NCBI RefSeq assembly: GCF_000382205.1 | Contig: NZ_KB907787.1 | Location: forward strand, 1,279,176-1,343,175 | Length of the DNA stretch: 64,000 nucleotides | From: Dyadobacter beijingensis DSM 21582 | GTDB lineage: Bacteria; Bacteroidota; Bacteroidia; Cytophagales; Spirosomataceae | Direction of reading: 5' to 3' | Shown here: in pieces, positions 17,393-21,825 of the stretch | Numbering within the stretch: position 1 is the stretch's first letter | Layout: each line of letters begins with the position of its first letter | Program-made: the position numbers and the translations under genes | The notes under the pieces: model-generated | What the model saw: only the letters and a program-made list of their open reading frames with translations | Database searches by the model: none | Told to the model about the DNA's origin: nothing

Positions 17393-18931
17393 ATGAAGGA
17401 AATCCATGATATTCTTGGAAAACTGGGCATTGCTGCCAGCAATAATGGCGTGAGTACCGGGCAGACGAGCTGGCAAGGCGGCGGCGCATTGCTGGAATCA
17501 TTTTCACCGGTCGATGGATTGAAAATAGCGGCATTAACCGGCAGCGTAAAGACTGACTACGACCGTGCCGTGGAAACGGCAACGCTCGCATTCAAGAAAT
17601 GGCGGAGCATACCTGCACCGAAACGCGGCGAAATCGTACGGCAAATGGGGGCGAAGCTCCGCGAACGCAAGCACGAGCTCGGAACGCTCGTGAGCTATGA
17701 AATGGGTAAGAGCTTGCAGGAGGGGCTCGGGGAGGTACAGGAAATGATCGACATATGCGATTTTGCTACCGGTCTTTCGCGGCAATTGTACGGCCTCACC
17801 ATGCATAGCGAGCGGCCGCAGCACCGGATGTACGAGCAGTGGCACCCCCTGGGCGTGACAGGCATTATTTCAGCATTCAATTTCCCGGTGGCGGTATGGT
17901 CGTGGAATGCGATGATCGCCTGGGTGTGCGGGAATGTGTGCGTGTGGAAACCCTCTGAAAAGACGCCGCTGACGGCTATTGCCTGCCAGCACATTATCCA
18001 GCAAGTTTTAAAAGACAATGAAGTACCCGAAGGCGTATCGTGCATTGTATCCGGCGGGCGCGAAGTGGGCGAATGGCTGGCTAACGACCCGCGCATTGGC
18101 CTCGTTTCAGCCACGGGCAGTATTCCAATGGGGCGGTCGGTAGGAGAGGCGGTAGCGCGCAGGCTGGGCAAGAGTTTGCTGGAACTGGGCGGGAACAATG
18201 CCATCATCGTCACGCCGACGGCCGATTTGAAAGTAGCGGTTCCCGGAATCGTTTTTGGCGCAGTAGGAACGGCCGGTCAGCGGTGCACATCCACCCGCCG
18301 GCTGATCGTCCACGAATCCATTTTTGAAGAGGTAAAAGCCCGTTTGAAAAAAGCGTATGGGCAGTTGAAAATCGGCAATCCGCTCGTGGAAGGCATTCAC
18401 GTAGGGCCGTTGATCGATCGGCCGGCAGTGACACAATACGAAAATGCGGTAGCCGAAATACGGAAGTCGGGTGGAAGATTTGTCGTGGAACCAGCCGTGC
18501 TGACGGGTGAGGAGTATGCTTCGGGCTGCTATGTGGCGCCGTGCATTGCCGAGGTGGAAAACCATTTCGCGATTGTGCAGCATGAAACGTTCGCGCCGAT
18601 ACTGTATATGATCCCGTACAGCGAGCCCGACGAGGCGATAGCATTACAAAACGATGTGCCCCAGGGGCTTTCCTCGGCGATTTTTACGAACGACCTCCGG
18701 GATGCCGAGCGCTTTCTCTCGCACGCCGGCTCCGATTGCGGCATTGCCAATGTGAATATCGGCACGTCGGGCGCGGAGATCGGCGGTGCATTCGGTGGGG
18801 AAAAGGAGACGGGCGGCGGGCGCGAATCGGGTTCGGATGCCTGGAAAGCCTACATGCGCAGGCAAACCAATACGATTAATTACGGCACGGCATTGCCGCT
18901 TGCGCAGGGAATAAAGTTTGAGATCGAGTAA
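17393..18931 (+). CDS. Aminoadipate semialdehyde dehydrogenase (ALDH7 family)
   Basis: A 512-residue aldehyde dehydrogenase most like ALDH7A1/antiquitin, which oxidises 2-aminoadipate semialdehyde to aminoadipate with NAD. Catalytic Cys298 sits in GTAGQRCTSTRRL and the general base Glu264 in LLELGGNNA. HPLGVTGIISAFNFPVAVWSWN is typical of ALDH7. The ATG at 17393 is chosen over upstream in-frame starts because those lie inside the preceding gene. Start-to-stop spacing of 16 bases from the saccharopine dehydrogenase indicates an operon. A promoter for the next cassette lies in its last codons. Confidence 0.9.
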   Translation: MKEIHDILGKLGIAASNNGVSTGQTSWQGGGALLESFSPVDGLKIAALTGSVKTDYDRAVETATLAFKKWRSIPAPKRGEIVRQMGAKLRERKHELGTLVSYEMGKSLQEGLGEVQEMIDICDFATGLSRQLYGLTMHSERPQHRMYEQWHPLGVTGIISAFNFPVAVWSWNAMIAWVCGNVCVWKPSEKTPLTAIACQHIIQQVLKDNEVPEGVSCIVSGGREVGEWLANDPRIGLVSATGSIPMGRSVGEAVARRLGKSLLELGGNNAIIVTPTADLKVAVPGIVFGAVGTAGQRCTSTRRLIVHESIFEEVKARLKKAYGQLKIGNPLVEGIHVGPLIDRPAVTQYENAVAEIRKSGGRFVVEPAVLTGEEYASGCYVAPCIAEVENHFAIVQHETFAPILYMIPYSEPDEAIALQNDVPQGLSSAIFTNDLRDAERFLSHAGSDCGIANVNIGTSGAEIGGAFGGEKETGGGRESGSDAWKAYMRRQTNTINYGTALPLAQGIKFEIE

Positions 18932-18949
18932 TTAAAATTTCTAACTTTG
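18917..18949 (+). promoter_or_regulatory. Promoter of the PqqD/transglutaminase/HprK/NTase cassette
   Basis: TTTG at 18917-18920 and TAACTTTG at 18942-18949, 21 bases apart, match the Bacteroidota -33/-7 promoter form. The -33 element is inside the end of the ALDH7 gene. Transcription would begin near 18955, leaving a leader of about 40 bases with no room for a precursor peptide gene before the first ATG at 18995. Confidence 0.65.
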
Positions 18950-18994
18950 TACAAAGCCAATACACATTCTATTTTTTCAGATTAAACTTTCAGA

Positions 18995-19261
18995 ATGAAA
19001 TACCAGCTCACTTCCGATCAGATCTCATCCAAAGTTGCGGGGGAAACAGTGATCCTTAACCACAGCAAAGGGGCATATTATGGTCTGGATGAAGTGGGCG
19101 TCCTGGTGTGGGATACATTGGAAAAAGGCCCGCAGACGATCGAGGAACTTTGCGAAGCGGTTACCAGCGAATACGAGGTGGATGCCGAAACCTGCAAAAG
19201 CGATATCGACGGGCTGCTGAAAGACCTTATCTCGGAACGACTGGTTGAAATCATCAAATAG
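18995..19261 (+). CDS. PqqD-like peptide-binding protein (RiPP recognition element)
   Basis: An 88-residue stand-alone PqqD-family domain. The core reads NHSKGAYYGLDEVGVLVW, then TIEELCEAV, and ends in DGLLKDLISERLVEI, covering the full winged-helix RRE fold. In RiPP pathways such domains bind the leader of a precursor peptide and present it to modifying enzymes; in lasso systems this is the B1 protein. It is the first gene of a tight four-gene run with its own promoter. The next gene begins two bases after its stop. The peptide it would bind is not evident nearby. Confidence 0.8.
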   Translation: MKYQLTSDQISSKVAGETVILNHSKGAYYGLDEVGVLVWDTLEKGPQTIEELCEAVTSEYEVDAETCKSDIDGLLKDLISERLVEIIK

Positions 19262-19263
19262 TT

Positions 19264-19704
19264 TTGGGCAAAATCGGCAAGCTGATCGGCAAATGGCGGA
19301 CGCTGTCCGGACCCGAGAAATGGATTTTCCTGCGGGCCGTATGGAGTTTGCTCTGGATCAAAACCGGTCTTGCGTTACTGCCGTTTGCCATTTTCCGCAA
19401 ATGGTACCACTGGCTAAGCCGCCCCAGCCACCTGAAAGAAACACCCCCGGACCAGATGACGCTTACCGTGTGGGCCGTGGACACCGCCGCCAACCTGCTG
19501 CCGTTCGAGCTATTGTGCCTGCCGCGCGCGCTGGCGACCAAATACCTGCTTCGTAATTCGCCCGCATTGACCCTGGAAATCGGAATAGAGATCAATCCTG
19601 CCAAACAGTTCGAGGCGCATGCCTGGGTGGAGCAGCATGGCAACATCGTCATCGGCCGCTGGCCTGACACCGTCTCTTACAAACGGATCTGGGTTTGGGA
19701 GTGA
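19264..19704 (+). CDS. Lasso-peptide B2-like transglutaminase-fold protease
   Basis: A 146-residue protein matching the lasso B2 (McjB C-terminal) family, a cysteine protease of transglutaminase fold that removes the leader peptide. The conserved core is present: Cys85 in ELLCLPRALATKYLL and His119 in FEAHAWVE; Asp135 in GRWPD is a candidate third residue. The N-terminal half (residues 20-50) is hydrophobic, as in many B2 proteins. The start is TTG at 19264, two bases after the preceding stop, the only reading that keeps the N-terminal helix. It lacks the usual partner lasso cyclase. Confidence 0.8.
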   Translation: MGKIGKLIGKWRTLSGPEKWIFLRAVWSLLWIKTGLALLPFAIFRKWYHWLSRPSHLKETPPDQMTLTVWAVDTAANLLPFELLCLPRALATKYLLRNSPALTLEIGIEINPAKQFEAHAWVEQHGNIVIGRWPDTVSYKRIWVWE

Positions 19705-19724
19705 TATTAATTGAAACGACACAC

Positions 19725-20642
19725 ATGCATCATTACATGGCCTTCGGGCTTCATATCCATTCTGAAATCGCATTGCCCGAACTCGCCGACGGCGACCCGG
19801 ATGCTGTGGTCGATGTGCACATCCGGCGCGGTACTTTCGAGCTGCCCAAGCTCCGCCCTACGACGATTTACAGACGGGGTATCCGCGCGCATTTCGGCCG
19901 GGACGCACAGCAGGCATTGTACCTCGATTGGGCCGGTGTGGCAGCATTCAAAGCCACGGGCGGCCATGCGCTCACCGTTTCGCCCGTTACTGCCGACGGT
20001 AATCTGATCAGCCTTTTTACAGTTAGCGAAGCATTAGGGCTCGTGCTGTTTCAAAAGGGCTATTTTCTCCTGCACGCGAGCGCTGTGGCCGTCGGTGACG
20101 AGGCGTGGTGCTTTATGGGGATGCCTGGGGCAGGAAAATCCTCTACCGCGGCGGCATTCATCAAGGCTGGTTGCCGGCTGCTGAGTGACGACCTTACCGC
20201 CATTACATTCGATAAATCCGGCAAACCGCTCATCATTCCCGCCTATCCACAGCTGAAAATCTGGGACCGCACCGTGCAGGGCCTGCAATACAACCGCTCG
20301 GACCTTGAACCGGTGAGCGAGGGGGTTAATAAGTTTTCATTCCAGCCCAAAGAAGGTTTCTCCCTGGCCGCCGTGCCATTAAAGAAAGTATTGTTTTTAC
20401 ACAAAGCGAGAAACAAACCGGCCGTACAAAGCCTCGGCGTGGCCGAAGTGCCGGGTGAAATGCTGCGTAATTTCCCGTTGGCAACGGAGCTTCTGGACGG
20501 CGAGTATCTCAAAAAGCATTTCTTTCAAAGCCTGCAATGTGCCAAATCTGCCGAAATTTTGCGGCAAAGAAGGCCGGAAGGTTTTGAAAGGCTGGAAAAA
20601 TGGGTGCGGGAAAGCATCCGTGAACAACTAATCGCGGGCTGA
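19725..20642 (+). CDS. HprK-like P-loop serine kinase
   Basis: About 305 residues from the ATG at 19725; a TTG at 19695 inside the previous gene would add ten. The C-terminal half resembles HPr kinase/phosphorylase: FLLHASAV, Walker A GMPGAGKSS, then GCRLLSDDLTAI with the acidic pair that follows the P-loop in HprK. It is not a true HPr kinase by context. Related proteins are found with PqqD-like proteins and nucleotidyltransferases in HprK-related modification systems, and HprK-like kinases phosphorylate the C-terminal serine of some lasso peptides. The target here is unknown. The nucleotidyltransferase starts one base after its stop. Confidence 0.75.
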   Translation: MHHYMAFGLHIHSEIALPELADGDPDAVVDVHIRRGTFELPKLRPTTIYRRGIRAHFGRDAQQALYLDWAGVAAFKATGGHALTVSPVTADGNLISLFTVSEALGLVLFQKGYFLLHASAVAVGDEAWCFMGMPGAGKSSTAAAFIKAGCRLLSDDLTAITFDKSGKPLIIPAYPQLKIWDRTVQGLQYNRSDLEPVSEGVNKFSFQPKEGFSLAAVPLKKVLFLHKARNKPAVQSLGVAEVPGEMLRNFPLATELLDGEYLKKHFFQSLQCAKSAEILRQRRPEGFERLEKWVRESIREQLIAG

Positions 20643-20643
20643 T

Positions 20644-21825
20644 ATGCGCCAGACCCATATTTCCCGTGAACTGGCTATTCTCATAGAAGCCGCGCTGGCG
20701 CCTGTCGGCGAGCTGCCGTTTAAGGTGAGCGATGCTCCGTTGGATCCGCAAAAATTTATGGCGCTCAGTAAATGGCACCAGGTGCGGCCGCTGGCATTTG
20801 AATATGCGCAGTCCCGTTCGCTGGAACTTCCCGAGCGCGTGTTGCGGGCATTGCGCGAATTCACCTTAGGACAGGCTGTGGCTAATATGGCGTTTTTGGG
20901 CATTTGCGTGCGTTTGTACAACCGGCTTACCGAACAGCACGTACGGGCTTTTCCGATGAAGGGCGCGCTGTGGGCCTGGAAGCTTTACGACAAACCCACT
21001 TTGCGGGAATTCGGCGATATAGACTTTTTTATCGGTAAGGAAGACGTTTCCAAAAGCCTCGACATTTTCCGCACCGAAGGTTTCGCAGCCGACAGCTACC
21101 GGCATTACCTGCTGAACCAGCAATCGGTGATGGACGATTACCTGAACACCGATTACCAGCTTCCGCTCACACCATTGCAGGAGCATACATTGCAGTCTCT
21201 TGAAATTCAATGGAATAGTACATACCCGCGGTATTGCTACAATTTCACATGGGATGAGCTGGCGGCGAACCGCGTCGAATTCACGATGGCTGGTAAGTCG
21301 GTCCTCGTTCCCGATACGGAAACGCAGCTCATTATGATGGTCATCCATCACGCGGGGGTGGAGCAGTGGGACAAGCTGAAATACATGGCCGATTTCGTCA
21401 GGCTACTCGATAAGTTCGCCGACCGGCTGGATTGGGAATATATCAGTCGCGTGGCAGCCGCGAAAGGTTTTTACAAACTGCTTCTTGAATCGCTGGGGGT
21501 GGCGGGTTTGCTTGCCGGGCGTGACTACTTGTCGGCTGCCGGGGTGCCGGGACAATATCCTTCACCTGCGTTTTTGCAAGAAATGCTGGCCCATTGGGAG
21601 AATGAGCGCCCTTCGCTGCAAACCAAAACGTGGCGCATTTTCCTTTATAATATCAAAAACCGCGACAGATGGTCGGATAAACTTTCCATTGTCGCGGCGC
21701 ATATCAGTTATTTGAGCCACTGGCGGCTGTTGTGGCACAAGCTCATTTGGTACCGGAAGCGGCCCTTAAACGAGGCTGACCGTAACCGTGCCGTCAACGC
21801 TATGACCGGGCGCGAGGATATTTAA
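20644..21825 (+). CDS. Nucleotidyltransferase family protein (NTP_transf_5-like)
   Basis: A 393-residue protein of the nucleotidyltransferase family found beside lasso-type and HprK-related peptide modification genes. The visible signature is FPMKGALWAWKLYDKPTLREFGDIDFFIG by position, near residues 98-126: a GxxL-like helix and the acidic DxD in GDIDFF, which would bind metal and NTP. The remainder is helical without a family I recognise. ATG at 20644 follows the kinase stop by a single base. Its last 60 bases overlap, tail to tail, the convergent mutarotase gene. Nucleotide transfer to a peptide or to a kinase partner is plausible but unproven. Confidence 0.75.
   Translation: MRQTHISRELAILIEAALAPVGELPFKVSDAPLDPQKFMALSKWHQVRPLAFEYAQSRSLELPERVLRALREFTLGQAVANMAFLGICVRLYNRLTEQHVRAFPMKGALWAWKLYDKPTLREFGDIDFFIGKEDVSKSLDIFRTEGFAADSYRHYLLNQQSVMDDYLNTDYQLPLTPLQEHTLQSLEIQWNSTYPRYCYNFTWDELAANRVEFTMAGKSVLVPDTETQLIMMVIHHAGVEQWDKLKYMADFVRLLDKFADRLDWEYISRVAAAKGFYKLLLESLGVAGLLAGRDYLSAAGVPGQYPSPAFLQEMLAHWENERPSLQTKTWRIFLYNIKNRDRWSDKLSIVAAHISYLSHWRLLWHKLIWYRKRPLNEADRNRAVNAMTGREDI

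Follow-up and report, generated by a model that had tools for sequence, protein, structure and literature searches.

A recognition-element, peptidase, kinase and nucleotidyltransferase cassette of Dyadobacter beijingensis as the probable processing half of a split lasso-peptide pathway

A compact cassette of four genes in Dyadobacter beijingensis DSM 21582, located in a 64,000-nucleotide stretch of the genome (the window), encodes a PqqD-type recognition element (B1) for ribosomally synthesized and post-translationally modified peptides (RiPPs), a lasso leader peptidase (B2), an HprK-like kinase (K) and an NTP_transf_5 nucleotidyltransferase (N). We consider it very probable that this PqqD-B2-K-N cassette supplies leader processing and tailoring to a split lasso-peptide pathway, whose distant half, a precursor (A) and a cyclase (C), lies at a remote locus. 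The sequence basis for this reading consists of single matches in the genome, mostly invariant catalytic residues, co-encoded sets in some relatives and a recurrent two-place layout; the joint action of the two halves in the cell, the threading of the product, the sequence of steps and the identity of the modified residue are what we infer. The cassette comprises, with lengths in amino acids (aa):

18995..19261, + strand: B1, PqqD-type RiPP recognition element, 88 aa (PF05402, TbiB1 match)
19264..19704, + strand: B2, lasso leader peptidase (transglutaminase-like), 146 aa, TTG start (NF033537)
19725..20642, + strand: K, HprK-like kinase, 305 aa, ATG at 19725 (weak HprK matches, structure model, motif)
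20644..21825, + strand: N, NTP_transf_5 nucleotidyltransferase, 393 aa (PF14907)

The initial annotation had described four tightly packed genes, and the coordinates agree, with intergenic gaps of 2, 20 and 1 bases if the ATG at 19725 is taken as the K start; the four families that it named, and their link to lasso tailoring, were borne out as well. B1 scored 71.2 bits against PF05402 (PqqD; cut-off 23.4) in the Pfam scan, and its best match among solved structures, in a search by sequence, was the lasso protein TbiB1 (6.3e-12). B2 matched Transglut_core3 with 75.8 bits (cut-off 26) and the NCBIfam lasso B2 model NF033537 with 91.1 bits (cut-off 33), and N matched PF14907 (NTP_transf_5) with 163 bits (Pfam cut-off 31.2). 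K was matched weakly and below cut-off by Hpr_kinase_C (19.9 of 33.3 bits, Pfam) and HprK_rel_A (38.1 of 200, NCBIfam). Its AlphaFold model (pLDDT 92.7, pTM 0.90, 15 sequences) was nearest to phosphoenolpyruvate (PEP) carboxykinases, with a best E-value of 2.1e-08 and a query TM-score of about 0.45-0.55, and the HPr kinase of S. xylosus ranked 47th (2.9e-06) with a TM-score of just 0.26; the two kinds of match are linked by the P-loop superfamily that PEP carboxykinase and HPr kinase presumably share. When solved structures were searched by sequence, K, N and B2 returned nothing at E ≤ 1.

The orphan status ascribed to the cassette holds for the 64-kb window, in which neither a leader-like motif near a C-terminus (pattern search) nor an SGGLDS-like motif was found. 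It does not extend to the genome (7.38 Mb, 13 contigs, 99.99% complete), where both a cyclase and a precursor are encoded on the contig of B2, about 630 kb away from it:

C2:668014-669948, − strand: C, lasso-cyclase-like protein, 644 aa, the sole Asn_synthase match in the genome
C2:669993-670148, − strand: A, precursor open reading frame, 51 aa, upstream of C on its strand

Profile searches, with matches counted at E ≤ 0.001, returned one match each in the genome for PqqD, B2, NTP_transf_5 and Asn_synthase. C scored 134 bits against PF00733 (Pfam), and its best NCBIfam model was the lasso cyclase NF033535 (191 bits), followed by asn_synth_AEB (149.5). Asparagine synthetases carry their catalytic Cys at the N-terminus, and that of C reads MLIQGF, not MC. 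Precursor A, MRTLTSHSTQTKKSYRKPVLVQHGSVNKLTK-GKLGSQPDDEGTEPNYAPDA (leader and core, cut as proposed), contains the leader motif YxxP, and a Thr, the penultimate residue of the leader, stands two residues ahead of the proposed cut; its core, GKLGSQPDD..., begins with Gly1, carries Asp8/Asp9 and ends in Ala. The Y, P and Thr are invariant across 23 aligned precursors, and the profile built from these 23 found A as its lone match in this genome (8.8e-24). The suggestion that the cassette acts on a peptide encoded elsewhere thereby gains a candidate in A. A split lasso pathway, named in the initial annotation as the finding that would overturn its view of a separate system, describes what was found: a precursor and a cyclase elsewhere, without adjoining B1 or B2, and single matches in the genome.

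The separation of the two loci extends to the whole genus. B2 exceeded its cut-off in all 48 Dyadobacter genomes (one, G025, with a weak second B2), and all 48 contain a lasso-type cyclase and a precursor match, that of G032 being frameshifted. PqqD, B2, K and N are contiguous in every one of them, with an aldehyde dehydrogenase (ALDH) gene seen upstream in 44; at the cyclase loci, labelled once per genome, the neighbours include a C25 peptidase (45/48) and a lipoprotein (43/48). The usual single-cluster layout of lasso pathways, which is not strictly defining, was not encountered: the distance between B2 and cyclase on a contig is 15 kb or less in 0/48 genus genomes, against 27/49 genomes of other genera. 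The separation of more than 15 kb is clear from contig positions in 47/48, a short B2-cyclase distance being possible only in G045, which is fragmented and has its cyclase at a contig end. The two genes share a contig in 21 genomes, 559-695 kb apart in 15 of these and farther apart in the others, with the exception of G047, in which the main cyclase is on a different contig from B2 and a second cyclase-like gene lies at a distance of 361 kb; in the remaining 27 genomes they are on separate contigs. Genome G003 combines three cyclase-precursor pairs with one B2. A scan of named genome contigs with the cyclase returned one locus, from D. jiangsuensis (NZ_PYAS01000002.1).

Some genus genomes hold further genes of these kinds. 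G003 has a fourth precursor match (G003:C11:1048306-1048440) on a contig without a cyclase match among those listed, possibly an orphan precursor. L086 (G006) and L087 (G027) are second lasso-like loci with a convergent precursor and a cyclase-like gene that starts MGGIAG, resembling cyclase-like genes read outside the genus, and at L139 (G014:C2:2633000-2643500) an Asn-synthase-like gene has nearby a second and distant HprK-like kinase. The lipoprotein beside the cyclase was considered as a lasso-specific partner and rejected: it has matches in 158 of 222 family genomes, versus 99 for the cyclase at 1e-60, and thus looks like an ordinary neighbour.

Relatives outside the genus connect the two halves. 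Using a cyclase threshold of 1e-60, with up to five candidates scored per genome, we found B2 in 114 and the cyclase in 99 of the 222 family genomes, of which 97 have both, 17 only B2 and 2 only the cyclase. Among the 49 genomes of other genera with both, the genes lie within 15 kb in 27, farther apart on the same contig (at least 171 kb) in 9 and on separate contigs in 13. The loci read cover 12 of these 49 (20 stretches), plus G155, G129 and G122, which has a cyclase but is split in another way. In L113, L116 and L121, precursor, PqqD, B2, K and N stand in a row with the cyclase convergent, and all five enzymes are present in L119 and L120 too, where no precursor was found by pattern. Other loci are partly dispersed: K is missing from the stretch read in L114 and L118, and K and N from that in L115, these genes being elsewhere in the same genomes; L126 and L136 (G188) and L128 and L135 (G203) are without local B2, which is found elsewhere in the genome; and G181 distributes the set over three places (B2; cyclase with N; K). 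The cassette stands beside ALDH in G096 and G173 too, both of which are also split. G155 shows the order ALDH-PqqD-B2-...-precursor-C-lipoprotein-C25 peptidase-K-N, spanning about 17 kb between PqqD and N, and its B2 is the sister of the 48 genus B2 proteins in a tree of 64 sequences (local support 0.957). We regard G155 as the strongest individual argument for the two Dyadobacter loci forming one pathway.

Two further observations concern gene content outside the genus. A protein of ~345-353 aa adjoins the precursor in L113, L116, L121 and L136, the last of which contains a tandem repeat of precursor and this protein. Bacteroides ihuae, a control genome, has matches for PqqD, lasso B2 and NTP_transf_5, and a similar gene set may exist in Bacteroides.

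Several observations weigh against assigning the cassette to a split lasso pathway. B1 scores too low for either of the two narrow lasso PqqD models of NCBIfam (67.6 bits against a cut-off of 80 for NF033536), and C is far under the cut-off of NF033535 (191 of 525). At B2 position 132, where we presume the Asp of the catalytic triad to lie, the residue is Asp in 24, Arg in 11, Asn in 9 and Lys in 2 of 48 genomes, so that this position offers no conserved third triad residue. A cyclase match at the threshold used is lacking from 17 of the 114 B2-bearing family genomes. In G032 (L096, L065) the kinase is in two frames and a run of A marks a frameshift in the precursor leader, reflecting either decay or a sequencing error. 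Finally, a C-terminal Ser, the residue modified by known kinases, is present in only 7 of 43 distinct genus cores and is absent from the core of A.

The lack of a cyclase match in those 17 genomes, and the hundreds of kilobases between the loci in all 21 genus genomes with both on one contig, would be expected if the target of the cassette were a protein or a different peptide, with the distant lasso precursor and cyclase processed without it. We judge this very unlikely, given that both loci are present in 48/48 genus genomes, that some relatives cluster the parts and that the solved structures closest to the PqqD protein are those of lasso B1 proteins; moreover, as no second PqqD or B2 match was found in the D. 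beijingensis genome, the distant precursor would otherwise be without such a peptidase. Neither a system separate from lasso synthesis nor a protein target, both entertained in the initial annotation, was supported.

Decay, the other outcome that the annotation had considered damaging to its proposal, finds its evidence in the broken kinase and precursor frames of one genome, G032. We give next to no credence to the cassette being a decaying remnant. Cys85 and His119 of B2 are invariant in 48/48 genus genomes, and His127-Lys148-Asp165-Asp166 of K (numbered from the TTG at 19695) in 47/47, G032 being excluded since its K, in two pieces, fails the length requirement. K106-G107 and G124-D-I-D127 of N are invariant in 18/18 sequences of at least 300 aa, the other 30 being cut at locus ends, and the cyclase motifs SGG-DSSS and GxxGD are kept in 47/47 sequences of at least 500 aa, with G045 excluded for length. 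The invariance of most tested catalytic residues argues against general decay, and B2 and K retain a median pairwise identity of 0.60 within the genus. The corresponding values are 0.32 for the cyclase and 0.41 for the C25 peptidase, indicating that the cyclase diverges faster than B2 and K. Correlated identities were rejected as proof of co-evolution, because the value for B2 and C (0.64) is matched by that for B2 and ALDH (0.63) and shared descent explains both.

Reading 49 precursors from 47 genus genomes by pattern yielded 43 distinct cores, a count that excludes the frameshifted G032 precursor and the extra matches of G003, G006, G014, G027 and G047. An Asp or Glu occurs at core positions 7-9 in 42/43 distinct cores, and the first acid falls there in 38/43 (shuffles 6.3, sd 2.3, max 15). 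A Gly-Ser whose Ser occupies core position 4-6 is present in 43/43 genus cores and in 10/10 cores from other genera. The acid at 7-9 and the leader Thr match lasso precursors, and B1, B2 and C together make up the lasso set; we thus consider it unlikely that a real pathway yields a product other than a threaded lasso, be it an unthreaded macrolactam or another cyclic peptide. Such a product would accord with the low cyclase identity within the genus, the cyclase score below the lasso model cut-off and the 10 cores from other genera, which would start with Lys and have the acid at residue 7.

The conserved Gly-Ser bears on the role of K and N. As described in the portions available of the sources cited here and below, known kinases of the paeninodin and pseudomycoidin type modify a C-terminal Ser (PMC9266682) and LppK modifies Ser3 of its core (PMC13381572), and on this ground the conserved core Ser is proposed as the target. 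With a confidence just short of even, we take the Ser of this Gly-Ser to be the likeliest kinase target and N to build on the resulting phosphate, as reported for PsmN; the motif may instead serve folding or the cyclase. The Gly-Ser is no proof of a kinase site. The clusters of L114, L115 and L118 keep it with no K in the stretch read, but these genomes carry a kinase elsewhere, so their Gly-Ser does not decide the question. Two genomes have a cyclase and no kinase match: G207 (80% complete), whose locus L134 has a precursor with Gly-Ser, and G122, in whose locus L133 no precursor was found by pattern.

In the split lasso pathway that we propose, B1 would bind the YxxP leader of A, and K would phosphorylate a Ser of the precursor, most likely that of the conserved core Gly-Ser. 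N would then add a nucleotidyl group to that phosphate, or a sugar as reported for PsmN. B2 would cut two residues past the conserved Thr, and C would activate the Asp or Glu at core position 7-9 and close the ring onto the new N-terminus.

Among known systems, the pseudomycoidin (psm) lasso cluster is similar in having a kinase, PsmK, which phosphorylates, and a nucleotidyltransferase, PsmN, which leads to a hexose on the phospho-Ser (PMC9266682). It differs in that its K and N are encoded in the cluster and a C-terminal Ser is modified, whereas the loci here are far apart and the core of A ends in Ala. Kinases and NTP transferases are typical of paeninodin-like lasso peptides (PMC13381572), and the His-Lys-Asp-Asp of the HprK-like kinases PadeK, ThcoK and SyanK (PMC9266682) recurs in the 47/47 K sequences above; in contrast, their substrate is the C-terminal Ser that few genus cores possess, and the leaders of the Bacillota representatives contain WxxP (PMC13381572) instead of YxxP. 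The LPP of Bacillota share a discrete RiPP recognition element, an HprK-like kinase, an NTP transferase and a YxxP leader with the present system, and LppK acts on a core Ser (PMC13381572); nevertheless, a linear polyphosphorylated peptide system like LPP is highly improbable here, since the conserved LPP set, as given in the available part of that source, has a signal-peptidase-like protease and no cyclase, unlike the lasso B2 and the cyclase beside the precursor in Dyadobacter. Citrulassin synthesis likewise depends on an enzyme, a peptidylarginine deiminase, encoded outside the lasso cluster (available part of PMC12971885), but there a single tailoring enzyme is distant, whereas here the recognition element, the leader peptidase and both tailoring enzymes are. 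The HPr-rel-A system (TIGR04352/TIGR04353) is weakly matched by the kinase and PqqD, both below cut-off (38.1 of 200 and 24.8 of 35, respectively).

As far as the open-access literature shows, the split lasso pathway is known in kind and new in layout. In the portions of that literature available to us, we found no treatment of Dyadobacter or Spirosoma lasso peptides and, including PMC4289311, PMC7280977, PMC10352776 and PMC10885120, no case of B1/B2 separated from the precursor and cyclase. Compared with paeninodin and pseudomycoidin, the new elements are the genus-wide split, the faster-diverging cyclase and cores that mostly lack a C-terminal Ser but all contain Gly-Ser. Mining that expects a cluster would see each locus as incomplete, so that a genus-wide lasso-like family with 43 distinct cores could be overlooked. 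Since the pathway is kept in 48/48 genomes, its function is presumably a steady one rather than that of an occasional weapon. More speculatively, B1-B2-K-N might be a constant module that acts in trans on faster-diverging A-C cartridges, with K and N modifying the Gly-Ser inside the predicted ring rather than a Ser at the C-terminus; we advance this as a possible, rather doubtful extension. If true, K and N would act at a site that is new to lasso-peptide tailoring. The layout provides a natural test of the extent to which a single recognition element and leader peptidase serve a number of precursors in trans. The combination of K and N with the conserved Gly-Ser makes the role of NTP_transf_5 enzymes in lasso pathways directly testable.

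The surroundings of the cassette comprise:

18917..18949, + strand: promoter-like site, with TTTG at 18917-18920 and TAACTTTG at 18942-18949, ending 45 bases before the PqqD ATG
Upstream flank: saccharopine-dehydrogenase-like and ALDH genes
Downstream flank: aldose-epimerase-like gene

The promoter-like site is one that we take to be of the Bacteroidota type. The pattern TTG-N17..23-TAnnTTTG occurs 5' of PqqD in 42/48 genus genomes, which are related to one another (base shuffles: mean 0.2, max 4); because the dehydrogenase gene reaches into the TTTG half, part of the conservation there is coding. At the precursor loci, a different element, GGATACT (often GGATACTGGTAnTAATCAT), lies at most 90 bases 5' of the presumed precursor start in 31/49 genus loci, for example L036, L037, L038 and L041 (shuffle mean 0.15), and is perhaps the start region of a promoter or a regulator site.

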